From assembly GCF_022808855.1 (NCBI RefSeq), contig NZ_JAKZLF010000036.1:1-51260 (forward strand): 51,260 nucleotides of DNA, written 5' to 3'. The translations under genes and the position numbers were made by a program. This DNA is from Anaeromyxobacter soli (GTDB lineage: Bacteria > Myxococcota > Myxococcia > Myxococcales > Anaeromyxobacteraceae). Below are positions 27,981 to 44,060 of this stretch, in pieces. Under the pieces are notes generated by a model. That model saw only the letters and a program-made list of their open reading frames with translations, was not told the origin of the DNA and did not search any database. Positions within the stretch are counted from its first letter, which is position 1. Each line of letters opens with the position of its first letter.

Positions 27981-29189
27981 TCAGCGCGCCGCTGCCTCCT
28001 GGCCCGGCTTGATGAGGACCTTGGTGTAGCCGGGCTCGCGCCGATCGAACTTCCGGTACGCGTCCGGCGCCTCGCTGAGCGGGATGCGCCGCGACACGAT
28101 GAAGCTCGGCTTCGCCCGGCCGGCGATGATGAGATCGCGCAGCACGAGGCTGTAGTTCTTCACCGGCGTCTGTCCCATGCCGAGCTGGATCCCCTTCTCC
28201 CACAGCTTGCCCCACGGCAGCGTGTAGGCGCCCTGCTTCGCCGCCTTGTCCTTGCCGCCGGGATCCTCGGGCAGGAACACGCCGATGATGCCGAGCGCGC
28301 CGGTGGGGTTCACGACCTCGACGAGCTGCTCGGTGAGCGACGTCGGGTGCTCCTTGCTCGGATCCTCGAAGTCCTTCGCCTGGTAGCCCACGGCGTCGAT
28401 GCCGCACATCACGCCCGCCATCTTCTCCTCGCCGCGGCGCATCGCCCCGCGCACGAGCGGGTTCGCGAGCCGCATGCTGCGGATCTGCTCGGCGGGCGGC
28501 CCCTTGCGGAAGTCGATGGCGATGGCGCCGATCTTTTGCGCCTTCTCGAGCCGCTCGGGGATCGCGTCCACGACGTACACCTCGGCGGCGCCGCGCAGCA
28601 TGGAGCTGTACGCGGCGAGTAGGCCCACCGGCCCCGCCCCGAAGATCGCGACGGTGGAGCCGGGCTGCACCCGCGCCATCTCCGCCGCGTGGTAGCCGGT
28701 CGGGAAGATGTCCGAGAGGAGCAGGAAGTCGTCCTCGAGCTCGTCGCCCGGCTTGCCCGGCAGCTTGATGCAGTTCGCCTCGCCCCACGGCACGCGCAAG
28801 AGCTCCGCCTGACCGCCCTTGTACGGGCCCATCCCCACGTAGCCGTAGGCGGCCCCGGCCGCCTCGTCGTTCGTCACGAGGCACGCGCTCGTGTAGCCGC
28901 GCGAGCAGTTGAAGCAGGTGCCGCAGGCGATGTTGAAGGGCAGGACCACCCGATCGCCCTTCTGGAGCTGCTGCACGGCGGTCCCCACCTCCTCGATGAC
29001 CCCCATGTTCTCGTGGCCCATCACCACGCCCGGCTCGGCGGCCGTGCGCCCCTCGTACATGTGCAGGTCGCTGCCGCAGATCCCGGCGGTGCTGATCCGC
29101 ACGAGCACGTCCGTCGCGCTCTCGATCCGCGGATCCTCCACCTGCTCGACGGACACCTTCCCCGGTCCCTTCCACACCACCGCGCGCAT
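27981..29189 (-). CDS. Zn-dependent alcohol dehydrogenase, glutathione-independent formaldehyde dehydrogenase type
   Basis: 402 residues, close to the size of Pseudomonas putida-type FdhA. The N-terminal GroES-like part holds catalytic-zinc residues Cys38 and His59 (GICGSDLH, VVMGHENMG). The structural-zinc loop has Cys89, 92, 95 and 103 (ACGTCFNCSRGYTSAC). The NAD-binding loop reads AIFGAGPVGLLAAYSSM. Such enzymes oxidise formaldehyde or related aldehydes with NAD+. ATG 29189 has a GGAGGT site. It is divergent from the nos cluster, but a functional link is not shown. Confidence 0.88.
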   Translation of the reverse strand: MRAVVWKGPGKVSVEQVEDPRIESATDVLVRISTAGICGSDLHMYEGRTAAEPGVVMGHENMGVIEEVGTAVQQLQKGDRVVLPFNIACGTCFNCSRGYTSACLVTNDEAAGAAYGYVGMGPYKGGQAELLRVPWGEANCIKLPGKPGDELEDDFLLLSDIFPTGYHAAEMARVQPGSTVAIFGAGPVGLLAAYSSMLRGAAEVYVVDAIPERLEKAQKIGAIAIDFRKGPPAEQIRSMRLANPLVRGAMRRGEEKMAGVMCGIDAVGYQAKDFEDPSKEHPTSLTEQLVEVVNPTGALGIIGVFLPEDPGGKDKAAKQGAYTLPWGKLWEKGIQLGMGQTPVKNYSLVLRDLIIAGRAKPSFIVSRRIPLSEAPDAYRKFDRREPGYTKVLIKPGQEAAAR

Positions 29190-29463
29190 GTGTGACCTCC
29201 TGGAAGACTCGAACTTCGGCACGTGAGGCGCGGCTGGCATCGGGCCGGGGGCCGTCCGGCCCCACGCCGCGGCGCTCTCGCCCGGCACGGCCCCTCGGCG
29301 GCCGACGCCGGCGTGCCGCTCCGAGAGTGCGCGCTGCGCGGCGTCGTGCCACACCCGAGCCGACGAGCCCAGCCGGAGTGACCGGGCGTCCTGACGTCTA
29401 CGATGGGGAGTGCCCAGCAGGATGAGCCGCCCGGCACGGGGTCGCGCGGAGAATTTCCCACCG

Positions 29464-31416
29464 ATGGGGATCACTGCGCGGATACCCGGGCTGCGCGACT
29501 GGCAGGAGCAGGTGAAGTGCCAGGCGGGCTGCCCCGTCGCCACGGACGCAGGGCGCTACGTCCAGCTCGTCGCCGAGGGACGTTACGAGGAGGGTTACCT
29601 CGTCGCGCGCGCCCCGAATCCGTTCGCCTCCGTGTGCGGCCGCGTCTGCGCCGCGCCGTGCGAGGAGGCCTGCCGGCGCGGGAGCGTGGACGCGCCGATC
29701 ACCATCCGCGCGCTCAAGCGGACCGTCTGCGAGCGTCACGGCGTCGAGTCGATGCACCCCGAGACGCAGAACCGCCTCCGGACCGAGCCGATGCGGGAGG
29801 GGAATCGCTACGCCGGGCACCTGCCGGTCGAGCGCGTCGAGGCCCCGCCGGCCCGGCGGCGGCCGAAGGTCGCGGTGATCGGTGCGGGCGCGGCGGGGCT
29901 GTCCGCAGCGCACGACCTCGCCCTGCTCGACTACGAGGTCACGGTCTACGAGGCGTCGCCCGAGCCGGGCGGGATGATGCGCTACGGGATCCCGGAGTAC
30001 CGGCTCCCGCGCAGCCTGATCCAGGCGGAGATCGACGCGATCCTCTCGCTCGGCGTCACGCTCCGGCTGGAGACGCCGCTCACGCCGGAGCGCGGCCTCG
30101 CGGCGCTCCGCGCCGAGGGGTTCGAGGCCGTCTTCCTCGCGGTCGGCGTGCAGAAGGGGCGCGAGCTCCAGCTGCCGGGCGTGGAGCTCGACGGGGTCGT
30201 GAAGGCCATCGACTACCTCCTCAACGCCAACCAGGGATACCGGCTCGACCTGGGCCGCCGGGTGGTCGTGATCGGCGGCGGGTTCGTGGCGTTCGACGCC
30301 GCCCGCACCGCGCTGCGCGTGAGCCGCGAGGAGGAGCTGAAGGCCCTCTCGGACGAGGCCGGCGGCGAGGCGGACGCGCGCCTCAAGGAGGCGCTCGACT
30401 CCGCGCGCGAGGCGCTGCGCGGCGGCGCGACGGAGGTCACGATCGTCTCCCTCGAGGCGTTCGAGGAGATGCCCGTCCTGCGCACCACGCAGGGCCACGA
30501 GGAGTTCGAGGAGGCGCAGCGCGAAGGCGTCCGCTTCCTGCCGCGGCGCGGCCCCAGGCAATTCCTCGGCGAGGGCGGCAAGCTGCGCGCGGTCGAGCTG
30601 CGCAAGGTCCTGTCGGTGTTCGACGAGGCGGGACGGTTCGCGCCGCGCTACGACGACGCGGACACGACGACCCTCCCGGCCGACGGCTGCATCCTCGCCA
30701 TCGGGCAGCGCGCGGACCTCTCGTTCCTCCACCCGGAGGACGGCGTCGAGCTCACGCCGGGCGGCACGATCCGCGTGGACCCCGGCACGCTCGCCACGTC
30801 CGCGCCGGGGGTGTTCGCCGGCGGCGACGTCGCGTTCGGGCCGCGGAACCTCATCGAGGGCATCGCGAACGGCAAGCGCGCCGCGCGGTCCATCCACCGG
30901 TACCTCGCCGGGGAGCGCGCCCGGCTCGAGACGCGGCTCGACGTCGAGAAGATCCCGACCCGCGACTACCGCATGATCGCCGGGTTCGAGCTGCTCGATC
31001 GGATGCCGCCCCCCACGCTGCCGGTGGACCGGCGCACCGGGATCGCCGAGGTCGAGGTCGGGTTCTCGGAGCTCCAGGCTCGGCAGCAAGGGGCGCGCTG
31101 CCTCGTCTGCCACGTCCAGACCATCTACGACCCGGAGAAGTGCGTCCTCTGCAACCGCTGCGTGGACGTCTGCCCCGAGTACTGCCTCGCGCTCGTGCCG
31201 CTCGACGAGGTGGAGCTGCCCGAGGCGGAGCGCGCCGAGGTGGTGGCGCGCGCCACGGCCGGCGGGCTGCCGCTCTCCGCCATGCTGAAGGACGACACCG
31301 CCTGCATCCGCTGCGGGCTCTGCGCCATCCGCTGCCCGACGGACGCGATGACGATGGAGCGCTTCACCTTCACGGAGCGCTGGACCGCGGCGGCCGCGCC
31401 GGAGGGGACGCCATGA
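29464..31416 (+). CDS. FeS/FAD oxidoreductase with GltD-like core and C-terminal ferredoxin domain
   Basis: 650 residues from the ATG at 29464 (29422 and 29410 are alternative starts). An N-terminal cysteine-rich domain (Cys19, 23, 58, 62, 66, 70) matches the Fe-S domain of GltD/dihydropyrimidine dehydrogenase. The FAD motif AVIGAGAAGLSAAHDL and the NAD(P) motif VVVIGGGFVAFDAAR follow. A 2[4Fe-4S] ferredoxin-like end has CVLCNRCVDVC and CIRCGLCAIRCP. No signal peptide, so cytoplasmic. It probably moves electrons between NAD(P)H and a membrane partner. Its stop overlaps the Rieske start (ATGA), so it is translationally coupled to the cytochrome complex. It is unusual as the first gene of a nos cluster. 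Confidence 0.85.
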   Translation: MGITARIPGLRDWQEQVKCQAGCPVATDAGRYVQLVAEGRYEEGYLVARAPNPFASVCGRVCAAPCEEACRRGSVDAPITIRALKRTVCERHGVESMHPETQNRLRTEPMREGNRYAGHLPVERVEAPPARRRPKVAVIGAGAAGLSAAHDLALLDYEVTVYEASPEPGGMMRYGIPEYRLPRSLIQAEIDAILSLGVTLRLETPLTPERGLAALRAEGFEAVFLAVGVQKGRELQLPGVELDGVVKAIDYLLNANQGYRLDLGRRVVVIGGGFVAFDAARTALRVSREEELKALSDEAGGEADARLKEALDSAREALRGGATEVTIVSLEAFEEMPVLRTTQGHEEFEEAQREGVRFLPRRGPRQFLGEGGKLRAVELRKVLSVFDEAGRFAPRYDDADTTTLPADGCILAIGQRADLSFLHPEDGVELTPGGTIRVDPGTLATSAPGVFAGGDVAFGPRNLIEGIANGKRAARSIHRYLAGERARLETRLDVEKIPTRDYRMIAGFELLDRMPPPTLPVDRRTGIAEVEVGFSELQARQQGARCLVCHVQTIYDPEKCVLCNRCVDVCPEYCLALVPLDEVELPEAERAEVVARATAGGLPLSAMLKDDTACIRCGLCAIRCPTDAMTMERFTFTERWTAAAAPEGTP

Positions 31417-31913
31417 CCTCGGATCGCAGGGAGTTCCTGAAGAAGCTCGGGATCGGCGTGGGGCTCGCCTCCGTCGCCGGTCAGGGGCTCGCGTCGCTCC
31501 GCTCGCTCGTCCCGAACGTCTCCTACGACGCGCCCACGGTCGTGAAGCTCGGGATCCCCGCCGAGTTCCCGGAGGGGATGAAGTTCCTGCCGGAGCAGCG
31601 GCTGTTCGTGTTCCGCGAGGGCAATGTCTTCCACGCGATCTCGGCCGTGTGCACCCACCTCGGCTGCACCGTCCGCGCGGAGGCGCTCTCCTCCCCGGTG
31701 GTGAAGAAGGTCGGCGGCACCGAGCTCCGCCTCACGCACCGGTTCCTCTGCCCGTGCCACGGCTCGCAGTACACGGGCGACGGCCAGAACGTCGCCGGAC
31801 CGGCGCCGCGGCCGCTCGAGTGGTGGGCGCTCTCGATCGCGCCCGACGACGGGCAGCTCGTCGTGGACCTCGCGAAGCCGGTGGAGCGCAGCTTCCGCCT
31901 CACGACCGCCTGA
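31413..31913 (+). CDS. Rieske [2Fe-2S] protein
   Basis: 166 residues. A twin-arginine signal-anchor (DRREFLKKLGIGVGLAS) sends the folded protein to the outer face of the membrane. Box I is CTHLGC (Cys80, His82, Cys85) and box II CPCHGS (Cys113, Cys115, His116). Cys80/His82 and Cys113/His116 bind the cluster, and Cys85-Cys115 is the expected disulfide. A GPAPRPLEWW loop follows. It should pair with the cytochrome b encoded 9 bases downstream as a bc-type quinol-oxidising unit. The ATG overlaps the flavoprotein stop. Confidence 0.95.
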   Translation: MTSDRREFLKKLGIGVGLASVAGQGLASLRSLVPNVSYDAPTVVKLGIPAEFPEGMKFLPEQRLFVFREGNVFHAISAVCTHLGCTVRAEALSSPVVKKVGGTELRLTHRFLCPCHGSQYTGDGQNVAGPAPRPLEWWALSIAPDDGQLVVDLAKPVERSFRLTTA

Positions 31914-31922
31914 GGAGGCGCC

Positions 31923-33278
31923 ATGGCCGTCCTGCCGACCGTCCCGCCGGAAGCGCCCCGCACCGCGCCGGGCGTCCACCTCCGCCGCCTGTGGAGCGTG
32001 CGCCCCGCCTCCGATCGCGAGGCGGGCGACGCGATCGTCGCGAACTTCATCCTCCACTGGTTCCCGGCGCGCTCGCTCAAGGAGTCGATGGAGTGGCGCT
32101 ACTCGCTCTGGCTCGGGACCATCTCGACCGCGCTCCTCGCCCTCCTCGTCGCGTCCGGGATCCCGCTCCTGTTCCTGCACATCCCGTCCGTCGAGCGGGC
32201 CTACGGGTCCGTGAAGGACATCGAGAACGTCGTCACGTTCGGCTCGTGGATGCGCGCGGTGCACCGGCTCGGCGCGCACCTCATGGTGGCGACCGTCTTC
32301 CTGCACCTCGTGCGGGTCTTCCTCACCGGCGCCTACAAGAACGGGGTCGGCCGCGGCCAGAACCGTGAGTGGAACTGGGTCATCGGCGTCGTGATGTTCC
32401 TCGTGACGCTGTTCCTGTCGTTCACGGGGTACCTGCTCCCGTGGGACCAGCTCGCCTACTGGGCGGTCACGGTCGGCACCAACATCGCCTCGGCGGTGCC
32501 GCTCGTCGGGGCGCAGATGCGAGAGCTGCTCCTCGGCGGCCGCGCCATCGACCAGCCGACGCTCACGCGCTTCCACGTCCTGCACGTGATCGTGCTCCCC
32601 GGCGTGCTCGGGGTGCTGTTCGCCTACCACATGTGGCGCATCCGCAAGGACGGCGGGCTCGCGCGCGCCGATCACGCGACGCGGCTGCCCGCCCCCGCCG
32701 AGGTGCCGGCGGAGCGCACCCGGACCAAGACGTACTCGCTCCTCGGCGTCGCGCGCGGGCAGGGACCGCTCATCCGCGCCTCGTCCGTCGAGCGGCCGGA
32801 GACCACGGTCAGCTCGGTCCCGGAGCTCACCCGCCGCGTCGCCCTCGTCATGCTCGGCACCGTCGCGGTGATCTCGATCCTGGCGGTGTTCGTCCCGTCG
32901 CCGCTCGAGGAGCCGGCGAACCCCCTCGTGACGCCCAACCCTGCGAAGGCCCCCTGGTACTTCCTCTGGCTGCAGGAGATCGTCACCGACACGACGATCC
33001 GCATCGGCTCCTTCACCGTGAACGGGGCGCTCGTCGGCGGCGTCATCCTGCCCGGCCTGCTCGTCGCGCTCCTCGTCGTCTGGCCGTGGCTCGATCGCAG
33101 CCCGGCCGCGGCGGCGGGGCGGTGGTTCCCCCGGAGCCGCCGCACCCAGAACGCCGTGTTCCTCGTGATCGTCGCCATCGTCCTCCTCCTCACCATCGTC
33201 GGCACGTTCTCTCGCGGCCCCTACTGGCACCTCTACTGGCCGTGGCAGGCCTGGCCCGAGATGCCGACCCGGTTCTGA
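31923..33278 (+). CDS. Cytochrome b (b6-like, fused with subunit IV-like part)
   Basis: 451 residues, about 8-9 membrane helices. Heme-ligand pairs His114/His128 and His221/His236 have spacings of 14 and 15 residues, the b6-type pattern. GYLLPWDQ (169-176) lies near the quinol site. The C-terminal third (NPAKAPWYFLWLQEIVTDTT) matches subunit IV; the PEWY position reads APWY, without the usual acidic residue. It presumably oxidises menaquinol and passes electrons to the Rieske protein. It sits directly between the Rieske and pentaheme genes. Confidence 0.92.
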   Translation: MAVLPTVPPEAPRTAPGVHLRRLWSVRPASDREAGDAIVANFILHWFPARSLKESMEWRYSLWLGTISTALLALLVASGIPLLFLHIPSVERAYGSVKDIENVVTFGSWMRAVHRLGAHLMVATVFLHLVRVFLTGAYKNGVGRGQNREWNWVIGVVMFLVTLFLSFTGYLLPWDQLAYWAVTVGTNIASAVPLVGAQMRELLLGGRAIDQPTLTRFHVLHVIVLPGVLGVLFAYHMWRIRKDGGLARADHATRLPAPAEVPAERTRTKTYSLLGVARGQGPLIRASSVERPETTVSSVPELTRRVALVMLGTVAVISILAVFVPSPLEEPANPLVTPNPAKAPWYFLWLQEIVTDTTIRIGSFTVNGALVGGVILPGLLVALLVVWPWLDRSPAAAAGRWFPRSRRTQNAVFLVIVAIVLLLTIVGTFSRGPYWHLYWPWQAWPEMPTRF

Positions 33279-33280
33279 CC

Positions 33281-34552
33281 ATGGAACCCGTGACGCCATC
33301 GCCGTTCGCATCCCGTGACCGGCTCCTGTTCGCGATCGTCGGCGTCCTGCTCGTCGTCTCGACGATCCTGTTCGTGTGGAGCGACCGCGCGAAGGACTGG
33401 CGCTGGTACCAGGCCGAGTTCCGCGGGCGCGTCGCCGAGAAGTTCGGCGAGGAGAAGGCGCGAGGGGTGCACGACGGCCTCGTGCAGATCTGGGTGCCCG
33501 AGCTGCGCCGCGCGGATCGCTGCATCACCTGCCACCAGGCCGGGCCGTGGAAGGGGTTCGAGGCCGCGGAGGAGCCGTTCCGCACGCACCCGCCGGAGAT
33601 CCTCCGGACCCACCCGGTCGAGCGGTTCGGCTGCACCGCCTGCCACGGCGGCCAGGGGTACTCGATCGACGCCGACGAGGCGCACGGCCCTGCGCCGCAC
33701 TGGGAGGAGCCGGTGCTCGGGCCGTACCTCGGCGAGGCGTACTCGCTCGCCTGGGAGGACAAGGGCGCGCTCATCCAGATCAACTGCAACCTGTGCCACC
33801 GCTTCGAGCGCGAGACGAAGGGGGCCGACGCGGTGAACCTCGCGAAGAAGCTCGTGCGCGACAAGGGCTGCCGGGCATGCCACGTCGTGAACGGCCGCGG
33901 CGGCACCATCGGCCCCGACCTGACCTACGTCGGGGACAAGGCGCCCGAGCAGTACGACTACTCGCGCCTCCTCGGCCAGAAGACGGCGTTCGCCTGGCAC
34001 GTCGCGCACCTGAAGGAGCCGAAGGCGATCGTCCCGGAGACGGTGATGCCGAACTTCGGGTTCTCGACCCGCGAGGTGCAGGCGCTCGCCATGCTCGTCA
34101 CCTCCTGGCAGCGCACGTCGCTGCCGACGTCCTTCGCCCCGGGCGCGCCGCGGAGCGAGCCGCAGACGCAGCAGGAGGTGGCGGAGGAGGAGCGGATGCG
34201 CACCGGGCCGGGCGCCTGGTTCGTGAAGACCGGATGCTTCGTCTGCCACAGCATCTCCTCGCTCGGCGTGAAGAGCCCCGCGCAGATCGGGCCGGACCTG
34301 TCGATCGCCGTCGAGGACGTGCAGAAGCGCTTCGGCCGCACCCTCGACGACTTCCTCGCGGCGCCGACCGGCACGATGGCGGTGGTGCTCTCCCGGCAGA
34401 TCATCCTCACGCCGGAGGAGAAGAAGGTCGCGATCGCGAAGCTCCGCGAGGCGTTCGCCGCCTGGCAGAAGGAGCGCGCGAAGGCCGCGGAGCCCGCCGC
34501 GAAGCCCACGGAGCCGGGCGGCGAGCCCGCGAACATCAGGAGGACGCCATGA
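33281..34552 (+). CDS. Membrane-anchored pentaheme cytochrome c
   Basis: 423 residues with one N-terminal anchor helix (LLFAIVGVLLVVSTILFVW, residues 15-33) and five CxxCH heme sites: residues 81-85, 118-122, 169-173, 197-201 and 319-323. The last ones lie in mono-heme cytochrome-like modules (GCRACH...GPDL, GCFVCH...GPDL; MPNFG at 256 may supply a Met ligand). It starts 2 bases after cytochrome b and overlaps nosZ by ATGA. It is the expected electron carrier from the bc-type complex to NosZ or to a soluble carrier. Confidence 0.92.
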   Translation: MEPVTPSPFASRDRLLFAIVGVLLVVSTILFVWSDRAKDWRWYQAEFRGRVAEKFGEEKARGVHDGLVQIWVPELRRADRCITCHQAGPWKGFEAAEEPFRTHPPEILRTHPVERFGCTACHGGQGYSIDADEAHGPAPHWEEPVLGPYLGEAYSLAWEDKGALIQINCNLCHRFERETKGADAVNLAKKLVRDKGCRACHVVNGRGGTIGPDLTYVGDKAPEQYDYSRLLGQKTAFAWHVAHLKEPKAIVPETVMPNFGFSTREVQALAMLVTSWQRTSLPTSFAPGAPRSEPQTQQEVAEEERMRTGPGAWFVKTGCFVCHSISSLGVKSPAQIGPDLSIAVEDVQKRFGRTLDDFLAAPTGTMAVVLSRQIILTPEEKKVAIAKLREAFAAWQKERAKAAEPAAKPTEPGGEPANIRRTP

Positions 34553-36453
34553 CGGTGCAAGGAAACAGGCGCTTCGCGATGGCGGCGGCCGCGCTGGCGA
34601 TGATCTCGATCGCGGGCTGCGCGCCGTCGAAGCCGAAGGGGGGACGCCGCGCCCCGGCGGCCGCGTCGGACACGGCGGTGGCCGCGCAGAAGACGTACAT
34701 CGCCCCGGGCGATCTCGACGAGTACTACATGTTCTCGTCGGGCGGTCACTCCGGCCAGGTGTTCGTGTACGGGCTGCCCTCGATGCGGCACCTCGGCACG
34801 ATCCCCGTGTTCACGCCCTACCCCGGCACGGGCTACGGGTTCGACGACGACACGCGGAAGATGCTCGGCGAGTACACCTGGGGTGACGCTCACCACCCGG
34901 GCCTCTCGGAGACGAAGGGCGACTACGACGGCCGCTGGCTCTTCATCAACGACATGAACGGGCGGGTCGCGCGCATCGACCTGCGCGACTTCAAGACGAA
35001 GCAGATCCTCGGCCCCATCCCGAACGTCTCGGGCAACCACGGCTCGTCGTTCGTCACGCCGAACACCGAGTACGCGATGATGTCCTCGCGCTTCTCGGTG
35101 CCGATCCCGCTCGGCACCTACGCGCCCATCGAGAAGTACGCCACCGACTACAAGGGCGTCGTCGTCGGCGTGAAGATCGATCCCAAGTCGGGCGAGATGT
35201 CGCTCGGGTGGGAGATCGTGACCCCGCCGTTCGACTGGGACCTGGGTGACGCCGGCAAGGGCGTGTCCGACGGGTGGATGTTCTTCACCTGCTACAACTC
35301 GGAGCGCGCGACGGGGAAGCTCGAGGTGACCGCCTCGCAGCGCGACCGCGACTACATCGCCGCGGTGGACTGGCGGCTCGCCGAGAAGTCCGTCGCCGCA
35401 GGCAAGGGCAAGATGATCGGCGGCGTGCGCGTGCTCGACCCGCGCGAGATCCCCGGCCTCATCTACCTCATGCCCTGCGGGAAGTCGCCGCACGGCGTGG
35501 ACGTCTCTCCCGACGGCAAGTGGATCGTCGGCTCGGGCAAGCTCCAGGGCGTCACCACCGCGTTCAACTTCGAGAAGGTGCAGACCGCGATCCGGAACAA
35601 GGACTTCGCCGGCGACGAGGACGGGATCCCGGTGCTCAAGTACGAGTCGATCAAGGACGCGGAGGTGCCGGTGGGACTCGGCCCGCTGCACACCCAGTTC
35701 GGCACGGACGGCTACGCGTACACCTCGCTGTTCGTCGACAGCGCGATCGCGAAGTGGAAGCTCGGGACCTGGGAGGTCGTCGACAAGATCCCGGTCTCGT
35801 ACTCGGTCGGCCACCTCGCGGCCGCCGAGGGCGACACGGTGAGCCCGGACGGCAAGTACGTCGTGTCCCTGAACAAGCTCTCCCACGGGCGGCACCTGTC
35901 GCTCGGGCCGTCGCAGCCCGAGTCGTCGCAGCTCATCGACATCACCGAGGAGAAGATGAAGCTGCTCTACGACGCCTTCACCGAGCCCGAGCCGCACTAC
36001 GCGCAGATCATCAAGGCGGACAAGGTGAAGCCGATCGAGGTCTACCCGAAGGAGGAGAACCACCACCCCCTCGCGACCTGGGACGTGAAGGAGGCGGGCC
36101 TGAAGCGCGAGGGCGACAAGGTGATCGTGCGCACCGTGGTGGTCCGCTCCACCATCACGCCGACGAGCGTGGAGGTGAACCAGGGCGACACCGTCACCTT
36201 CGCCATCACCAACATCGAGCAGACGACGGACGAGCTGCACGGGTTCGGGCTGCTCGGGTACAACCGCAACCTCGTCCTCGATCCCGGCGAGACGAAGACG
36301 GTCACCATCAAGGCCGACAAGCCGGGCGTGTTCCCCTACTACTGCACGAACTTCTGCTCCGCGCTCCACCAGGAGATGCAGGGTTATCTCATCGTGAAGC
36401 CACGCGCGGGCGGCGACGAGAAGGGCCGCAAGCGCGACAACGGCCACGACTGA
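34549..36453 (+). CDS. nosZ: Nitrous oxide reductase (clade II type)
   Basis: 634 residues, reducing N2O to N2 in the periplasm. The N-terminus is a lipoprotein signal with lipobox IAGC (Cys24), not the Tat signal of clade I enzymes. CuZ-site residues appear in DAHHPGLSETKG (Asp113, His115, His116) within the seven-bladed propeller. The cupredoxin CuA site is CTNFCSALHQEM (Cys599, Cys603, His607, Met610), with His around residue 562 (DELHGFG). The loop has Asn where clade I has Trp. The ATG overlaps the previous stop. NosR and NosX, the clade I partners, are absent. Confidence is high from both copper motifs. Confidence 0.98.
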   Translation: MTVQGNRRFAMAAAALAMISIAGCAPSKPKGGRRAPAAASDTAVAAQKTYIAPGDLDEYYMFSSGGHSGQVFVYGLPSMRHLGTIPVFTPYPGTGYGFDDDTRKMLGEYTWGDAHHPGLSETKGDYDGRWLFINDMNGRVARIDLRDFKTKQILGPIPNVSGNHGSSFVTPNTEYAMMSSRFSVPIPLGTYAPIEKYATDYKGVVVGVKIDPKSGEMSLGWEIVTPPFDWDLGDAGKGVSDGWMFFTCYNSERATGKLEVTASQRDRDYIAAVDWRLAEKSVAAGKGKMIGGVRVLDPREIPGLIYLMPCGKSPHGVDVSPDGKWIVGSGKLQGVTTAFNFEKVQTAIRNKDFAGDEDGIPVLKYESIKDAEVPVGLGPLHTQFGTDGYAYTSLFVDSAIAKWKLGTWEVVDKIPVSYSVGHLAAAEGDTVSPDGKYVVSLNKLSHGRHLSLGPSQPESSQLIDITEEKMKLLYDAFTEPEPHYAQIIKADKVKPIEVYPKEENHHPLATWDVKEAGLKREGDKVIVRTVVVRSTITPTSVEVNQGDTVTFAITNIEQTTDELHGFGLLGYNRNLVLDPGETKTVTIKADKPGVFPYYCTNFCSALHQEMQGYLIVKPRAGGDEKGRKRDNGHD

Positions 36454-36469
36454 CGGCGGAGGGCGCGTG

Positions 36470-37150
36470 ATGCGATCGGAACGGGCGATGTCGCCGCCGG
36501 CCGGGCGGCTGCGCGGCTACATCGTGAGGAGCCACCGGGTGCTGGACTCGCCGATCAGCGCTGCGCCGCGGGCGCTCCTCGTGCTCGCGGCGGTGCTGCT
36601 CGTCGTGGCGCTCACGCAGCCGCTGTGGGACATGACGATGTTCGCGCCGCAGTACCAGGACGGCCTGCGGCTGCACATCTACGCCTCGCAGCTCGTGGGT
36701 GGCAACGGCGGCCAGGACCTGAAGGAGATCAACCTCCTCAACCACTACATCGGCATGCACGACCTCGCGCAGGAGAGCTTCAAGGAGTTCCTGTGGATGC
36801 CGTTCGTCTTCGGCGCCCTCGCGCTCCTGCTCCTCCGCGCCGCCGTGTTCGGGACCGTCGGGAACGTGCTCGACGTGACGGTCCTGTCCATGTACGTCGG
36901 CGCGTTCTCCCTGTGGTCGTTCGCGAAGACGATGTGGGCGTACGGCCACGAGCTCGCGCCGACCGCGCCCGTGAAGGTCCCGCCGTTCATGCCGCCGGTG
37001 TTCGGCTCGAAGCAGCTCGCGAACTTCGAGGTGTACTCGTACCCCGGCGTCGGGACCTGGGCGATCATCGTCGCCGCGGTCGCGATGGCGGTCGCGCTCG
37101 CCGTCGCCGTCCGGGGCGCGCGGCGCGAGCTCGCCGCCGAGCCCGCATGA
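36470..37150 (+). CDS. nosB: NosB-like membrane protein
   Basis: 226 residues from the ATG at 36470; a GTG three bases upstream is an alternative. About four to five hydrophobic helices (ALLVLAAVLLVVALTQPLW, FVFGALALLLLRAAVFGT, VLSMYVGAFSLW, WAIIVAAVAMAVALAVAV). No enzymatic motif. The position between nosZ and nosD corresponds to nosB, a membrane protein described for clade II nos operons, whose role is unresolved. The gene symbol follows from context and size, not from a motif. Confidence 0.7.
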   Translation: MRSERAMSPPAGRLRGYIVRSHRVLDSPISAAPRALLVLAAVLLVVALTQPLWDMTMFAPQYQDGLRLHIYASQLVGGNGGQDLKEINLLNHYIGMHDLAQESFKEFLWMPFVFGALALLLLRAAVFGTVGNVLDVTVLSMYVGAFSLWSFAKTMWAYGHELAPTAPVKVPPFMPPVFGSKQLANFEVYSYPGVGTWAIIVAAVAMAVALAVAVRGARRELAAEPA

Positions 37151-38529
37151 CCGCGGCCGGGCTCCTCGCCGCCCTCATCGCGGCGCAGGCCGGGGGCGAC
37201 ATGCCGAGCGTCGCGCCGGGGCAGCTCGAGGGCCGGCCGCCCCCCGGCGAGGCCTCGCCGCTCCAGGCGCGCGTCGACGCAGCGCCCGCGGGCGCGACCG
37301 TCGAGGTCGGGCCGGGGACGTACGACGGCGACCTCGTCATCGACCGCCCGCTGCGGCTCGTCGGGCGCGGGCGGCCGCTCCTGCGCGGCTCCGGCAAGGG
37401 GAGCGTGGTCCGGATCCGGGCGGCCGGCGTGACGGTGGCCGGGTTCGACGTGGACGGGCGCGGCGGCGGCGACCTCGGCCGCGACAGCTCCGGCGTGCAC
37501 GTCTCCGCGCCGGGAGCCGTGGTGCGCGACAACCGGATCGCGAACGCGCTCTTCGGCGTGTACCTGCGGGAGGCGCCCGGCGCGCGCGTCGAGGCGAACG
37601 TGGTGCGCGGCATCCGCGGGAAGGATCCGGGCGAGAAGGGCTCGGGCATCCACGTCTGGAACACGGACGGGTTCACGCTCGCGGGGAACGACATCGCCGA
37701 CTGCCGCGACGGGCTCTACATCCAGTCCTCGCCGCACGGCACGATCCTCCGCAACTCCGTCCGCGACCTGCGCTACGCGATCCACTTCATGTACTCGGAC
37801 GACAACGTCTTCGAGGACAACCTCTTCGAGCGCTCGGACGCCGGCGGCGTGCTCATGTACTCGCGGCGGCTCGTCTTCCGGCGGAACCGCTTCCTCCACA
37901 ATCGCGGCTTCGCCTCGGTCGGCCTCCTCCTGAAGGCCTGCGACGACTCGCTCGCCGAGGACAACCTGCTCGCGGACAACGCGCGCGGCGTCTTCCTCGA
38001 GGGCTCCTACCGCAACCTCCTGCGCAGGAACGTCGTCGCCGAGTCGGACACCGCCCTCGTGGTGTACGACTCGTGCGGCGAGAACCGGATCGAGGGGAAC
38101 GCGTTCATCGCGAACCTGACCTCCCTCACGCTCGTGGGCCGCCGGACGGACACGGTCCTCGACGGCAACTACTGGTCGGACAACGACGAGCCCGACCTCG
38201 ACGGCGACGGTGTCTCCGATCGGCCGTTCGTGCTCGGGAGCCTGTTCGATCACCTGCGCGGCAACCTCACCGCCGCCGATCTGCTCGCCCAGAGCCTCGC
38301 CGCCGCGGCGCTGGGGGTCGCCGAGCGGGCGTTCCCCGTGCTCGCGCCGTCCGAGGTCGCCGACCGGCGGCCCCTCGCGCGCCCGCCTTCGCTCCCCGCC
38401 GTACCCCGCCCCTCGCCGCGCCCGCGGAGGCCCGATCCGCTCGGGCTCGCGGGCTCGCTCGCGGCGCTCGCCGCCGGCGGGGCGCTGCTCGCCGGCGCGC
38501 GACCTCGGCGGCACGCGGAGGCGCCGTGA
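37147..38529 (+). CDS. nosD: Nitrous oxide reductase maturation protein NosD
   Basis: 460 residues. An N-terminal signal-like stretch is followed by many right-handed parallel beta-helix repeats of the CASH/NosD type (AGVTVAGFDVDGRGG, LFGVYLREAPGARVEANVV, FASVGLLLKACDDSLAEDN, and similar). A C-terminal hydrophobic segment and basic end suggest a membrane tether. NosD is periplasmic and acts with the NosFY ABC transporter in copper-sulfur (CuZ) assembly of NosZ. The ATG overlaps the NosB stop by ATGA. Confidence 0.93.
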   Translation: MTAAGLLAALIAAQAGGDMPSVAPGQLEGRPPPGEASPLQARVDAAPAGATVEVGPGTYDGDLVIDRPLRLVGRGRPLLRGSGKGSVVRIRAAGVTVAGFDVDGRGGGDLGRDSSGVHVSAPGAVVRDNRIANALFGVYLREAPGARVEANVVRGIRGKDPGEKGSGIHVWNTDGFTLAGNDIADCRDGLYIQSSPHGTILRNSVRDLRYAIHFMYSDDNVFEDNLFERSDAGGVLMYSRRLVFRRNRFLHNRGFASVGLLLKACDDSLAEDNLLADNARGVFLEGSYRNLLRRNVVAESDTALVVYDSCGENRIEGNAFIANLTSLTLVGRRTDTVLDGNYWSDNDEPDLDGDGVSDRPFVLGSLFDHLRGNLTAADLLAQSLAAAALGVAERAFPVLAPSEVADRRPLARPPSLPAVPRPSPRPRRPDPLGLAGSLAALAAGGALLAGARPRRHAEAP

Positions 38530-39449
38530 TCCGCTTCGACGCCTTCGGCAAGCGCTACGGCCGGCAGCGCGCGGTCTCGCGCGTCGACCTCGCGGTGACC
38601 CGCGGCGAGGTCGTGGCGCTCCTCGGCCCGAACGGCTCCGGGAAGAGCACGTGCCTCAAGGCCGCGGCGGGGCTCGTCCGGCCGAGCGACGGCCGCGTGG
38701 AGATCGGCGAGCCGCTCCGCTCCGCGGCGCTGCCCGAGGCCCGGCGGGGCGTCTCGTTCCTGCCGCAGAAGGTGGCGTTCCCCGAGGCGCTCACCGGGCG
38801 CGAGGTGGTCGAGTTCTACCGCCGGCTGCGGGGCGCCGCCCGCGGGCGCACCGAGGCCGCGCTCGGGCTGGCCGCGCTCGAGGGCGCGGCGGACCGTCCG
38901 GTCGGGACCTACTCGGGCGGCATGGTCCAGCGGCTCGGGCTCGCCGTGGTGGCGCTGGCCGACGCGCCCATCCTCCTGCTCGACGAGCCCACCTCCTCCC
39001 TCGACCGGGCCGGCCTCGCCGCCGCCCACGCGCTCGCCGATCGCGGCCGCAGCGAGGGACGCGCGGTGCTCTTCAGCACGCACCAGCTCGCCGACGTCGA
39101 GCGTCTCGCGGACCGCGTCGCCGTGCTCGTGGACGGGGCGCTCGTCGGGAACCTCGATCGCGCCGAGCTCGCGGAGCGCCTCGCCCGGCGCGGGGTCCTG
39201 CGCCTGCGCGTCGCGCGCGCGCCGGCCGCGCTCCCGGCCGAGCTCGAGCGGCTGGCGCCCGGCGCCGAGCTCCACGGAGAGGAGATCGTGGTGATCGGGC
39301 CCGCCGCGGTCCGCGCCGCCGCGCTGGAGGCGGTGCGCGCGAGCGGCGCCGAGCTGCGCGGCCTCTCCTCGGAGGAGGGGCGGCTCGACCTCCTCTACGA
39401 CGAGCTCGTCGGCGCCGCCGGGCGCTCCGGAACGGAGGTGCGGGCATGA
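38526..39449 (+). CDS. nosF: ABC transporter ATP-binding protein NosF
   Basis: 307 residues from a GTG overlapping the nosD stop (GTGA). Walker A GPNGSGKST (34-42), ABC signature YSGGM (129-133), Walker B LLDEP (151-155) and the switch-like STHQLADVERLADR region. The C-terminal portion is a regulatory addition. NosF energises NosY to deliver sulfur or copper species for NosZ maturation. Order NosD-NosF-NosL-NosY is seen here. Confidence 0.95.
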   Translation: MIRFDAFGKRYGRQRAVSRVDLAVTRGEVVALLGPNGSGKSTCLKAAAGLVRPSDGRVEIGEPLRSAALPEARRGVSFLPQKVAFPEALTGREVVEFYRRLRGAARGRTEAALGLAALEGAADRPVGTYSGGMVQRLGLAVVALADAPILLLDEPTSSLDRAGLAAAHALADRGRSEGRAVLFSTHQLADVERLADRVAVLVDGALVGNLDRAELAERLARRGVLRLRVARAPAALPAELERLAPGAELHGEEIVVIGPAAVRAAALEAVRASGAELRGLSSEEGRLDLLYDELVGAAGRSGTEVRA

Positions 39450-39904
39450 CGTCTTCCCTATCGCGCGCGCTCGGCGCGCTGGCGCTCCTCGCCGCGCTCG
39501 CCTGCCGGACCCGGTCGCCCGCGCCGGCGCCCCTCGACACCCGGAACGACGCCTGCGCGTTCTGCCGGATGGCCGTCTCGGACCGCCACTTCGCCGCGCA
39601 GCTCGTGGCGCCGGGCGAGGAGCCGCTGTTCTTCGACGACCTCGGCTGCCTCGCCCGCCACCTGGCCGCGTCCCGCCCTCACGCGGGCGCGGTGGCCTGG
39701 GTCGCCGATCACCGGACCGGCGAGTGGGTCCGGACCGCGCGCGCCACGTACACGCGGAATCCCAGGCTCGAGACGCCGATGGGCTCGCACCTCGTCGCGC
39801 ACGCGGACGCCGCCTCCCGCGACGCGGATCCCGCCGCGCGCGGCGGCGTCCCGGCGACCGCCGCGGAGATCTTCGGCCCCGCGGGGCCACCGGACGGCAA
39901 ATGA
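39446..39904 (+). CDS. nosL: Copper chaperone lipoprotein NosL
   Basis: 152 residues with a lipoprotein-type leader ending at Cys20 (LLAALAC). The copper-binding motif is NDACAFCRM (Cys37, Cys40, Met42), characteristic of NosL, which carries Cu(I) for NosZ assembly. The region FFDDLGCLARHL and WVADHRTGEWVRTARATY are typical of the family. It overlaps both nosF and nosY by 4 bases. Outer face of the membrane. Confidence 0.95.
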   Translation: MTSSLSRALGALALLAALACRTRSPAPAPLDTRNDACAFCRMAVSDRHFAAQLVAPGEEPLFFDDLGCLARHLAASRPHAGAVAWVADHRTGEWVRTARATYTRNPRLETPMGSHLVAHADAASRDADPAARGGVPATAAEIFGPAGPPDGK

Positions 39905-40749
39905 GCGCACCGACCCGGCTGGCCGCCCTCTCCCTCGTCGCGCGCCAGGAGATCGCGCTCGCGGTCCGCTCGCGCTGGACGGCGATCTTCGCGGGCGTGT
40001 TCGCGCTGCTCGCCGTGGGCGTGGCGGCGAGCGGCTACGTCCTCTCGGGCGGCAGCGGCTTCGAGGACTTCGCGCGCACCAGCGTGTCGCTCGTCCAGCT
40101 CGTCGTCCTGGTGGTGCCGCTCGCGGCGCTCGTGATGGGCGTGCTCGCCGTCGCGCCGGAGCGCGGCACCGCCGAGCTCCTCTTCTCGCAGCCCATCGGG
40201 CGCGGCGTCGTCCTGCTCGGGCAGCTCGCGGGCCTCTTCGTCGCCCTCTCGGCCGCCGAGCTCATCGGGTTCGGCGCGGCGGGGCTCGTCGTGTTCCTGA
40301 ACGCCGGGGAGGAGGGCGCGGGCGCGTACTTCCTCCTCGTGCTCGGGGCCGTCCTGCTCACCGCGGTCTTCCTCGCGATCGCGGCGCTCGTCGGCGCCGG
40401 CGCGGTGGGGCGCAAGCGGACGCGGGCGCTCGCGCTCGCCCTCGTGGTCTGGTTCGCCGCGACGGTGCTCGTCGACGTGGCCGCGCTCGGCGTCGCGACG
40501 CTGCTCCGCTCCACGGCCGCGTCGCGCCTCCTCGTGGCCTCGGTCGTCGTGAACCCCGCGAGCGCGATCCGGGTCGGATCGCTCCTCGCCGTCCAGGGCA
40601 CCGCCGCGTTCGGCGCAGCGTCCCTCGCGCTCCTGCGGCTCACCGGCGGACCGGTGGGCGCGGCGCTCCTCCTCTGCGCCTCGGTCCTCGCGTGGATCGT
40701 CCTGCCCATCGCGGCGGCGGTCTATCGGCTCCGGCGGATCGACCTGTGA
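39901..40749 (+). CDS. nosY: ABC transporter permease NosY
   Basis: 282 residues with six to seven membrane helices (TAIFAGVFALLAVGVAASGY, LVVLVVPLAALVMGVLAV, VLLGQLAGLFVALSAAELIGF, FLLVLGAVLLTAVFLAIAALVG and more). ABC-2 type permease of the NosY family, partner of NosF. The segment APERGTAELLFSQPIGR is a recognisable NosY feature. It is the last gene of the cluster, overlapping nosL by ATGA; no clear terminator follows. Confidence 0.95.
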   Translation: MSAPTRLAALSLVARQEIALAVRSRWTAIFAGVFALLAVGVAASGYVLSGGSGFEDFARTSVSLVQLVVLVVPLAALVMGVLAVAPERGTAELLFSQPIGRGVVLLGQLAGLFVALSAAELIGFGAAGLVVFLNAGEEGAGAYFLLVLGAVLLTAVFLAIAALVGAGAVGRKRTRALALALVVWFAATVLVDVAALGVATLLRSTAASRLLVASVVVNPASAIRVGSLLAVQGTAAFGAASLALLRLTGGPVGAALLLCASVLAWIVLPIAAAVYRLRRIDL

Positions 40750-41104: not shown

Positions 41105-42292
41105 TCACGGCGCCCACATGGCCAGTTGCATCCCTGGATACAGCGATGCCACGCCAGCGCGCGAGAGCGGCGTCGGCCGTGCGTTTGCGTCGCGGCGGAA
41201 GCGATCCATGTGCTCGCGCCCGAAGGTGTTCTCTGCGTGAAGAAGATTATGGGGTCGGCAGGCGAGCCGAAGATTATCGATCGTCGTCGGCCCACCGAGG
41301 GCGGCGGGTTGGATGTGGTCGAGCTCGAGCTTCCAGCGACTGTTGCAGCGGCAGCCGTCCGAGCCCACCCAGGCGCACCGCCCGCCGTCGCGCTTCCACA
41401 CCGCGCGGCGCACTATCGCCGGGATCGTGGACCTCGCCGTCGGCGGCTTCGCCGCATGCTCCTTCGCGCCCTTGGCCTCGTCCTTCGTCTTGCGCTCGGG
41501 CGCGACCGCGCCCTTCCTCTTGCCGTGCTTCTCGATGGCGCAGCGGATCGCCTCGTGGAGCACCGCAGCGAGATCGCCGTCCGGGACCTTGTGCGACAGG
41601 AGCGATCGGAGCGTCTCGAGGTCCTCCTTGCAGGCGCGATCGAGCGTGACGCGGAGCGACCAGTGGCTCTCCGACACGGCGAGCGTCTCGGCCCTTCGCT
41701 TCGGCTTCACGAAAGTGGGTGAGGGCGCCGGGAGCGGACCGGTGTCGAGGGGCGAATCGAGGGTCGGCTTCGCAGGGCCGGGCGCGGTCGCCGTCTCGGC
41801 CAGCTCGGCTTCTGGGAGCTGCAGCGGGGCGCTCACCGCGGCGGGCGCGCGCTCGGCCAGCTTGCGGAGGCCTGCGCGCGGCGCGGTGCGCGCCTGGATG
41901 GAGACGACGAGTTGCTCGACCTCGGCCCGGGTCCGGAAGGCGGCGCGAGCTAGGAGGTCGCCCACGTTCTCCTCGGTGAGCACCTGGCCGAGGAGCGCCA
42001 CGGTGGACAAGCACAGGCGCCCATCGCGCAGCGGAGCCTCGAGATTCGGGAAGCGGCGCAGCACGCGCATCGCCTGGATACGCCGGCCGGCGGCGCCCTC
42101 GCGCAGGTGGAGGGCCTCCAAACAGTAGGCCCACAGGGACGCATGACCCGCCGCGACGAAGGCTCGGCGCCGATCGAATTCGTCGAGGTGCAGGAGGAAG
42201 TCGACCTGGACGTTTCGTTCCTCTCCGGCGAGCTCGCGCAGGCGGAGGGCGAGGACGTTAGAGTCGAGTGAAGCAGGGGCGAGCGCAGACAT
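41105..42292 (-). CDS. HNH endonuclease (DUF222-like N-terminus)
   Basis: 395 residues from the ATG at 42292; a longer frame lacks support. The C-terminus holds the HNH nuclease: AVWKRDGGRCAW, then WKLELDHIQPAALGGPTT, IDNLRLACRPHNLLHAENTFG. Asp-His and Asn-His positions of the metal site are present. The N-terminal half (RLRELAGEERNVQVDFLLHL, LRLSTVALLGQVLTEENVGDLL-like segments, shortened here) and a middle Pro-rich, Lys-rich linker resemble the DUF222/HNH proteins. Such genes often occur in multiple genomic copies and may be mobile or defence-related. Function unknown. Confidence 0.85.
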   Translation of the reverse strand: MSALAPASLDSNVLALRLRELAGEERNVQVDFLLHLDEFDRRRAFVAAGHASLWAYCLEALHLREGAAGRRIQAMRVLRRFPNLEAPLRDGRLCLSTVALLGQVLTEENVGDLLARAAFRTRAEVEQLVVSIQARTAPRAGLRKLAERAPAAVSAPLQLPEAELAETATAPGPAKPTLDSPLDTGPLPAPSPTFVKPKRRAETLAVSESHWSLRVTLDRACKEDLETLRSLLSHKVPDGDLAAVLHEAIRCAIEKHGKRKGAVAPERKTKDEAKGAKEHAAKPPTARSTIPAIVRRAVWKRDGGRCAWVGSDGCRCNSRWKLELDHIQPAALGGPTTIDNLRLACRPHNLLHAENTFGREHMDRFRRDANARPTPLSRAGVASLYPGMQLAMWAP

Positions 42293-43007
42293 GAGGTGCA
42301 CCTCCAGTACACCCTTCGTAGCACGCGATTTTCGGAGCTCCGGAGACGCTCCAGGCTCGCGCCTGCGCGGCGTTCTTCGGCGCATCCTCGTCGATGCCTT
42401 TCGGCGATCGCCACGCGTGACACGCGCGAGGCGCGTGCGCGAGAGCGGCATTTTCGCGCCGGCCCGTATGCTCGAGCGCGCTCGTGGCGAGAGGGCGTCA
42501 ATGGGAAATGTTTCACCCACCGCAACTGGGACGCCCGCGCTCTGGGCGAGCGAATTGCCCGACGTAGCGAACTATCGCTGGCGACAGCTGTTACTTAAGG
42601 TGAACCGCGGCGACCTTTCGCGACGCTCGGGTCCGTGCGCAGGCGCGAGCTGTGGATGCGCGTCGTTCGCATGCGCTCGCGCGAATTCACGCCTGCGCCG
42701 AGCCCAGCCGGTTCCACGCCCACGACGAGACGTCCGCCTGGCTCGCCGCCTTCGCCGCCTTCATCGGGTCGCCGCTCAGAGCGCGTGCGCCGACTTCGTC
42801 GATGCCTGAATCCGCCATGCGCGCGAAGACGTCGGTCGAAACACCCACCGCTCGTCCCGCGAGTACTTGGGCTTCGATGAATGGCGGACTCTCCGCCGGG
42901 GGCGCCCCCCTCGCGCCTGTGCCGCGGCGTCTCCTCCGGCCTAGAGCCTCCCGAGACCTCGGCTCGCGCCCGGAGGGGCGGCCGCCGCTCGGCAAGGGAG
43001 AGACCGC
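42293..43007. other. Low-information region between HNH gene and nitronate monooxygenase gene
   Basis: 715 bases. It contains one doubtful short minus-strand frame (42687-42848). Other frames are short and lack supporting similarity; base composition is somewhat less uniform than in flanking genes. Confidence 0.4.
42687..42848 (-). CDS. Possible small protein or gene remnant
   Basis: 53 residues from a GTG at 42848, or 43 from the ATG at 42818. The C-terminal part (FARMADSGIDEVGARALSG, ASQADVSSWAWNRLG) has GC-rich third positions and looks protein-like, while the codons just upstream (CAA, GTA, CCA, AGT) do not. It could be the 3' end of a decayed gene. No family recognised. Confidence 0.3.
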   Translation of the reverse strand: MGVSTDVFARMADSGIDEVGARALSGDPMKAAKAASQADVSSWAWNRLGSAQA

Positions 43008-44060
43008 ATGGCAGCCCAGGCGAACGCGCTCCTCGCGCGGCTCGGCTTCGAGCACCCCATCATCCAGGCGCCGCTCGGAGGCATCCCCACGACCACCCTC
43101 GTGGCGGAGGTCTCGGAGGCCGGCGCGCTCGGGAGCCTCGGCGCGGCGTACCTCTCTCCGGAGCAGCTCGAGGACGCGATCGGCGAGATTCGCTCGCGGA
43201 CGTCCACGCCCTTCGCGGTGAACCTGTTCGCCGGCGGGTGGGACGCGAGCGCCGGGGGCGACGCGCGGCGGATGCTCGAGCTCCTCGCGGGCGTCCACGA
43301 GCGCCTCGGCCTCCCGCCGCCCACGGTCCCCACGCTCGCCGCGGACGCGTTCGAGGCGCAGCTCGCGGTGGTGCTCGACGCGCGCCCCGCGGCGTTCAGC
43401 TTCACGTTCGGCGTCCCGTCCGCGGAGGTCCTCGGGCGTCTCCGGGAGCGCGACGTCTTCACCATGGGGACCGCCACCACGGTGGAGGAGGCGCGGCTGC
43501 TCGAGCGGGCCGGCGTGGACGCCGTCGTCGCGCAGGGGGCCGAGGCCGGCGGCCATCGGGGCACCTTCGCCGGGCCGTTCGAGGCGGCGCTCGTCCCCAC
43601 CGCGCGGCTCGTGGCCGAGAGCGTCTCCGCCGTGCGCGTCCCGGTGATCGCCTCGGGGGGCCTCATGGACGGGCGCGACGTCGCGGCGATGCTGCGCCTC
43701 GGCGCCGCCGCGGCGCAGCTCGGCACCGCGTTCCTCGTGACGCCGGAGTGCGGCGCGTCGGCCGCCTACAAGCGGGCGATCCTCGCCGCGCGCGCCGACA
43801 CCACCGCGCTCACGCGCGCGTTCTCGGGGCGGCCGGCGCGCGGGCTCGAGAACGCCTTCATGCGCCTCGTCGACGCAGAGCCGGGCGCGATCCTCCCCTA
43901 CCCGCTCCAGAACGCCCTCACCCGTCCGATGCGCGCCGCGGCGGCGCAGCAGGGCGACCCGGAGCACCTGTCGCTCTGGGCCGGGCAGGGCGTCGCGCGG
44001 GCGCGCGCGCTGCCCGCGCGCGAGCTCGTCCGGCGCCTGGTCGAGGAGCTCGGGGGGTGA
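43008..44060 (+). CDS. Nitronate monooxygenase / 2-nitropropane dioxygenase family
   Basis: 350 residues. TIM-barrel FMN-binding features: IIQAPLGGIPTTTLVAEVSE at the N-terminus, QGAEAGGHRG with the active-site His, ASGGLMDGRDVAAMLRLGA (phosphate-binding loop), TAFLVTPECGAS. Members oxidise nitronates or act as FabK-type enoyl reductases; this sequence cannot be placed more exactly. The start ATG follows a GGAGAG-like site. It stands alone between the intergenic stretch and rlmA-like gene. Confidence 0.88.
   Translation: MAAQANALLARLGFEHPIIQAPLGGIPTTTLVAEVSEAGALGSLGAAYLSPEQLEDAIGEIRSRTSTPFAVNLFAGGWDASAGGDARRMLELLAGVHERLGLPPPTVPTLAADAFEAQLAVVLDARPAAFSFTFGVPSAEVLGRLRERDVFTMGTATTVEEARLLERAGVDAVVAQGAEAGGHRGTFAGPFEAALVPTARLVAESVSAVRVPVIASGGLMDGRDVAAMLRLGAAAAQLGTAFLVTPECGASAAYKRAILAARADTTALTRAFSGRPARGLENAFMRLVDAEPGAILPYPLQNALTRPMRAAAAQQGDPEHLSLWAGQGVARARALPARELVRRLVEELGG

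Follow-up and report, generated by a model that had tools for sequence, protein, structure and literature searches.

A ten-gene nitrous oxide reduction locus of Anaeromyxobacter soli that probably includes its own quinol-oxidising complex

Results

Gene content and layout

In the present study, we analysed a stretch of 51,260 nucleotides from Anaeromyxobacter soli (the window; contig NZ_JAKZLF010000036.1), in which the gene of a clade II nitrous oxide (N2O) reductase, NosZ, is clustered with genes for a flavoprotein, a Rieske protein, a cytochrome b and a multiheme cytochrome c. Reading of the open reading frames (ORFs) gave ten compact plus-strand ORFs at 29464-40749, with the same ends as in the initial annotation. 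They are listed below in their order, with lengths in amino acids (aa) and the matches on which the names are based.

Gene 1, 29464..31416, plus strand: flavoprotein of the FAD/NAD(P) type with 4Fe-4S clusters, GltD/NfnB-like, 650 aa (Pyr_redox_2, Fer4_20, Fer4)
Gene 2, 31413..31913, plus strand: Rieske 2Fe-2S protein with a Tat-like N-terminus (DRREFLKK), 166 aa (PF00355)
Gene 3, 31923..33278, plus strand: b6f-like cytochrome b with a fused subunit-IV part, 451 aa (PF00033, PF13631, PF00032)
Gene 4, 33281..34552, plus strand: membrane-anchored pentaheme cytochrome c, 423 aa (five CXXCH; Cytochrom_C, weak FixO)
Gene 5, 34549..36453, plus strand: nosZ, clade II nitrous oxide reductase, 634 aa (TIGR04246, 904 bits, cut-off 625)
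Gene 6, 36470..37150, plus strand: nosB-like (named by position), 226 aa, membrane protein in which four hydrophobic segments can be seen by eye
Gene 7, 37147..38529, plus strand: nosD, periplasmic maturation protein (TIGR04247, 382 bits, cut-off 300; PF05048)
Gene 8, 38526..39449, plus strand: nosF, ABC transporter ATPase, GTG start (PF00005; conserved position)
Gene 9, 39446..39904, plus strand: nosL, copper chaperone (PF05573 above cut-off)
Gene 10, 39901..40749, plus strand: nosY, ABC transporter permease (PF12679; conserved position)

Six of the nine junctions were overlaps of 4 base pairs (bp), and measurement placed them at exactly the genes for which they had been described, namely Rieske, nosZ, nosD, nosF, nosL and nosY. 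Five of them read ATGA (flavoprotein/Rieske at 31413, pentaheme/nosZ at 34549, nosB/nosD at 37147, nosF/nosL at 39446 and nosL/nosY at 39901) and one reads GTGA (nosD/nosF at 38526). The other three are short gaps, of +9 bp between Rieske and cytochrome b, +2 bp between cytochrome b and pentaheme, and +16 bp between nosZ and nosB with the ATG at 36470, or +13 bp with the alternative GTG start at 36467. The sequence by itself does not establish the cluster as one translational unit, as these three junctions have no overlap. Since A makes up 1.2% of third positions in these genes, five ATGA at nine junctions are far beyond chance (p ~3e-8 for at least five, under a chance model built from third-position base use in the ten genes). 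When ATGA and GTGA were counted together p was 0.16, and the GTGA at nosF, taken alone, is unsurprising because 43% of the codons end in G. Scans for promoters and terminators gave nothing above shuffled sequence.

In a survey of related loci, in which start codons were chosen mechanically and a few rows were clearly mis-picked, the 4-bp overlap was found at nosD/nosF in 17 of 18 scored loci, at nosF/nosL in 16 of 18, at nosL/nosY in 13 of 17 and at flavoprotein/Rieske in 11 of 21. The nosD-F-L-Y overlaps were kept across phyla.

NosZ and the accessory proteins

The NosZ scored only 433 bits against the clade I (Tat) model TIGR04244 (cut-off 625), far below its clade II score. Residues H115, H116, H164, H315, H381, H422, H483, H564, C599, C603, H607 and M610 were invariant in 19 sequences, and we take them to be the putative CuA/CuZ ligands from alignment with NosZ of the Protein Data Bank (PDB) and knowledge of the family. 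At the N-terminus (34549-34668), Cys24 was also invariant in the 19 sequences and opens a C[A/T/P]P-rich stretch right after the signal-like helix. The idea of a lipoprotein anchored through Cys24 was not adopted, because Arg, Gln or His precedes the Cys in 11 of the 19, which does not suit signal peptidase II.

The nosB-like protein, directly after nosZ, had 44-68% identity in most relatives and no match in Pfam or NCBIfam. The initial annotation had noted the absence of NosR and NosX, and a genome-wide profile search (5.3 Mb, 100% complete) bore this out: NosR (PF04205) and NosX/ApbE (PF02424) gave no match, and the control genomes did match. A NosG/NosH-like quinol dehydrogenase or small NosC cytochromes were not present among the ten proteins.

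Rieske protein and cytochrome b

The Rieske motif CTHLGC...CPCHGSxY was common to all 21 sequences, with Ser118 and Tyr120 invariant; residues of this kind are linked to a high Rieske potential in passages of PMC12954380. Its best PDB matches were 9rk3 and 9rk4, in a database that holds few such proteins. Molecule names, read with passages of PMC12954380, suggest that these two are the anammox Rieske proteins Kuste4569/Kustd1480, the PDB codes themselves being unmatched. Between the two cluster-binding motifs (31640-31760) there is a spacer of about 27 residues, mostly conserved at its start (TVRAEAL), which is longer than in the aligned anammox and b6f Rieske proteins.

The best PDB match of the cytochrome b was cytochrome b6. 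Its haem ligands H114, H128, H221 and H236 were invariant, and the Qo motif was APWY (KAPWYF), not PEWY, in 21/21 close sequences. Near the position of the haem-cN Cys of b6f there is an invariant Trp63 and no Cys, and the N-terminal His45 was kept in all sequences. The two halves had their best NCBIfam matches in ExtP and ExtQ, both below cut-off (228/290 and 83/150 bits). A match in the spacing from His45 to a partner Arg (Arg247/Arg266 in anammox) was not retained, as residue 248 varies.

Pentaheme cytochrome c

The five CXXCH motifs of the pentaheme lie at residues 81, 118, 169, 197 and 319. Together with His103, His111, His135, Met256 and Met366 they were invariant in 20 sequences, which would give three bis-His and two His/Met haems. 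The AlphaFold2 model (mean pLDDT 44) was too poor for a fold search. Anaeromyxobacter terrae SG22 was the closest named relative, with 94% for the pentaheme.

Flavoprotein encoded by gene 1

The gene 1 product has an N-terminal Fer4_20 region, GltD-like FAD and nucleotide domains, and two 4Fe-4S motifs at the C-terminus. It resembles PRK12771 with a score below cut-off, and its PDB relatives are NfnA/NfnI/GltD. In 21 sequences, 18 cysteines were invariant. Two things back the start codon: the N-terminus is conserved, and A. terrae has indels in the sequence ahead of this codon. No export signal was seen in the protein, and it is presumed to be a cytoplasmic subunit of the Rieske/cytochrome b complex. 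Wherever this end of the locus is intact, gene 1 was first and collinear, with 53-63% identity in the most divergent loci.

GltD-type proteins usually carry an NADP-binding Arg pair. By eye, no such pair was seen in gene 1, and Ser-Leu-Glu stands in its place. Also by eye, a variable stretch of some 40 residues is inserted behind GGGFVAFDAAR in the nucleotide-binding part (30250-30480), and the modules that stand apart from nos genes lack it. The AlphaFold2 model of the flavoprotein (mean pLDDT 53) was likewise too poor for a fold search.

Distribution across genomes

A search for the same gene order in other genomes had been proposed as a check, and the complete ten-gene order recurred at 22 further loci in Myxococcota and Acidobacteriota. 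These comprise ten loci (L001-L007, L009, L012, L013), seven further genomes of Anaeromyxobacteraceae and five divergent loci of Acidobacteriota (L105-L109); the remaining loci were cut by a contig end, had no detectable nosL or had no nosY match in place.

Of the genomes surveyed, 30 had a close homologue of the pentaheme, and clade II NosZ was present in 30/30 of these; "close" means E < 1e-190 in Myxococcota and E < 1e-60 in Acidobacteriota. In Myxococcota, 10 of 195 genomes had a close pentaheme and all ten were NosZ-positive, against 38 NosZ-positive genomes in the 195 (Fisher p 3e-8). The corresponding numbers for Acidobacteriota were 20 of 347, all 20 positive, against 39 of 347 (Fisher p 5e-22); both counts and p values ignore the relatedness of the genomes. 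The pentaheme gene adjoined nosZ in 19 of the 20 Acidobacteriota, and in the other one NosZ sits on another contig.

Apparent dedication to N2O and modularity

The genome of the window has a single PF00033 cytochrome b, a single pentaheme and a single NosZ. It has two Rieske domains, of which the second, by eye, resembles a short NirD-like ferredoxin. All nine NosZ-positive genomes of Anaeromyxobacteraceae had just one PF00033 cytochrome b, which lies at the nos locus, and for this reason the b/Rieske complex looks dedicated to N2O in the family. In NosZ-negative members the nos-type cytochrome b was lost or replaced. Outside Anaeromyxobacter, extra PF00033 cytochromes b were found in 8/10 relatives from the named loci.

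In other Myxococcota, we found distant homologues (~26-52% identity) of genes 1-4, or of Rieske, cytochrome b and multiheme c alone, at loci that have no nos genes. Locus L054 (G163:C10:143000-162500) has the module followed by a cbb3-type oxidase (COX1, FixO and a CcoG-like protein), and L049, L051 and L053 have it with a molybdopterin oxidoreductase downstream. Because they are found without nos elsewhere, genes 1-4 look like a portable quinol-oxidising module that is here joined to nos. A gene 1 homologue precedes Rieske and cytochrome b in all four of these loci, which argues that gene 1 goes with the Rieske/cytochrome b unit.

Discussion

The data are best explained, in our view, if the ten genes are an N2O-respiration operon with its own quinol-oxidising complex, and we consider this reading of the sequence quite probable. 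Quinol, probably menaquinol, would be oxidised at the Qo site of the b6f-like cytochrome b, in a complex that may unite the products of genes 1-4. The first electron would pass through the Rieske cluster and the membrane-anchored pentaheme to CuA of the clade II NosZ, presumably by direct contact between pentaheme and NosZ. The second electron would move through the b haems towards the cytoplasmic side and there reduce either the FAD/4Fe-4S subunit or, as in an ordinary Q cycle, a quinone. The maturation and support of NosZ would fall to NosDFY, NosL and NosB, and the ten genes are probably co-transcribed. The locus would in this way be a dedicated quinol-to-N2O chain, possibly with a link to NAD(P)H.

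Three points weigh against this explanation. The overlap of the pentaheme gene with nosZ was found in just 3 of ~20 loci, all in close relatives. In both phyla there are NosZ-positive genomes without a close pentaheme, which means that NosZ as such is independent of the module. In addition, the uniqueness of the cytochrome b holds for PF00033 only, and Anaeromyxobacter may have a further route from quinol to cytochrome c, such as alternative complex III. The initial annotation had drawn the route from quinol through the b/Rieske unit and the five-heme cytochrome to NosZ. The conserved gene set and order support this route, but it leaves out gene 1, which is present in all loci intact there and may change the mechanism. 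The role of gene 1 is the point of interest.

The first alternative concerns the fate of the second electron and is a sharper form of the explanation above, not its opposite. Quinol electrons might be bifurcated, one going downhill to N2O and the other being driven by way of the b haems and the flavoprotein's Fe-S clusters to NAD(P)+. We regard this as possible but rather unlikely, by analogy with the anammox complexes Kuste4569-4574 and Kustd1480-1485. According to passages of PMC12954380, these contain a b6f-like cytochrome b, a Rieske protein, multiheme c and a putative FAD/Fe-S NAD(P) oxidoreductase, and the mechanism proposed for them is bifurcation of the electrons of quinol to NAD(P)+. 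Genes 1-4 match this set as it is described there. The position of gene 1 (first and collinear, cysteines kept, in all loci intact there, and ahead of Rieske/cytochrome b also in modules without nos) is consistent with bifurcation, as are the invariant Ser118/Tyr120 and the apparently anammox Rieske proteins 9rk3/9rk4 as best matches, since in the same account NAD(P) oxidoreductases and multiheme c belong to their parent complexes. The invariant His45 of cytochrome b is like a His proposed, in that account, for an extra haem in anammox models. However, the same His45 motif occurs in L050 and L052, two loci without the flavoprotein, so that it is not diagnostic. The anammox mechanism is itself a proposal, Trp63 replaces the haem-cN Cys of b6f, the cytochrome b is fused, which is not the case in the anammox complexes, and the usual Arg pair of GltD-type proteins was not seen by eye in gene 1.

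There are further differences from the anammox complexes, whose Kuenenia side is known here by description. The partner is NosZ and not an HAO-like protein, the cytochrome c is a pentaheme and not a hexa- or octaheme, and cytochrome b and subunit IV are fused without a haem-cN Cys. It is plausible that the nos-linked complex works like the anammox complexes, and membership in that group is not claimed. If bifurcation were true, part of the clade II N2O reducers would obtain reducing power in addition to proton motive force.

A second alternative reverses the flow, with the flavoprotein as an input through which NAD(P)H or ferredoxin would deliver electrons by way of FAD and Fe-S clusters to the b haems or the quinone pool. 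The operon would then be an N2O reductase chain fed by both NAD(P)H and quinol. The reactions of GltD/NfnB proteins with NAD(P)H and ferredoxin can run both ways, the PDB relatives of gene 1 are of this type, and electron transfer from NAD(P)H to N2O is strongly downhill. A simple entry of NAD(P)H needs no Rieske or high-potential branch, however, and no precedent was found in the open-licence literature searched, and we judge this reading, and the doubly fed chain that it implies, to be unlikely. Least probable is that the pentaheme/b/Rieske genes encode a general quinol:cytochrome c oxidoreductase placed beside nos by chance, with other periplasmic cytochromes c feeding NosZ, for although distant modules adjoin a cbb3 oxidase (L054) or molybdopterin oxidoreductases (L049, L051, L053) and many NosZ-positive genomes of both phyla have no close pentaheme, the 30/30 co-occurrence with NosZ, the order conserved in divergent loci, the overlap of the pentaheme gene with nosZ in Anaeromyxobacter and the cytochrome b lost or replaced in NosZ-negative Anaeromyxobacteraceae argue against it.

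The explanation by a quinol-oxidising complex of the operon's own has a parallel in Wolinella succinogenes, in which a clade II NosZ is also fed by a Rieske/cytochrome b-type complex. Hein et al. in 2017 are said to have given genetic support that N2O respiration of Wolinella depends on its Rieske/cytochrome bc complex. Wolinella has a NosG-C1-C2-H module and a separate Rieske/cytochrome bc complex, whereas here NosG, NosC1/C2 and NosH are absent and the Rieske/cytochrome b genes lie inside the nos operon together with the pentaheme and the flavoprotein. The Rieske motif, the four b-haem histidines and the b6f-like helix-D spacing (15) are shared with cytochrome b6f/bc1, but APWY stands for PEWY, the haem-cN Cys is absent, the pentaheme takes the place of cytochrome f/c1 and there is an extra flavoprotein. 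ExtP/ExtQ, the b-type cytochrome of the selenite/tellurite operon, are the best NCBIfam matches, but here the halves are fused and the genomic context is another one.

The layout is already known in outline, because clade II nos clusters with Fe-S, Rieske, cytochrome b and cytochrome c genes are drawn, going by legends and text, in PMC11096178 (Fig. 5) and PMC13122619 (Fig. 2A), and the nos operons of A. dehalogenans in PMC11102522 (Fig. 1). Compared by those legends and text, and not gene by gene, the published clusters share with ours the clade II NosZ, NosB, NosDFYL, the absence of NosR/NosX and the Fe-S/Rieske/b/c cytochrome genes, and in them gene 1 is not discussed as an NAD(P)-type flavoprotein. 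The arrangement is thus not unusual, and electron supply to clade II NosZ, which the initial annotation called poorly worked out, reportedly already has genetic support in the Rieske/cytochrome bc complex of Wolinella. A search of open-licence papers for nosZ in connection with bifurcation, Rieske and cytochrome b yielded none that seemed relevant by title and abstract. New in the present study are the recurrent ten-gene order, the co-occurrence with NosZ, the sole PF00033 cytochrome b, the portable module and the neglected flavoprotein.

Organisms with clade II NosZ are a major soil sink of N2O, and the electron route has been worked out for few models. In this cultured, non-pathogenic genus the question of the electron route is directly testable, the genome having a single PF00033 cytochrome b, pentaheme and NosZ and no NosR. 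A higher biomass yield per N2O has been reported for A. dehalogenans, as cited in PMC6264515. A flavoprotein that makes NAD(P)H, if true, could bear on this yield.

Further observations

In a tree from concatenated sequences (L001-L013, L040-L047), the window and A. terrae joined G039, which belongs to another genus, and stood apart from G001, G002, G005 and G006 of the same genus, hinting at a transfer or at an uneven genus boundary. The operon is flanked by the following genes.

27981-29195, minus strand: zinc-type alcohol dehydrogenase, upstream and divergent from the operon
41105-42520, minus strand: gene of the HNH endonuclease type, the first one downstream of the operon
43008-44060, plus strand: nitronate monooxygenase gene, further downstream

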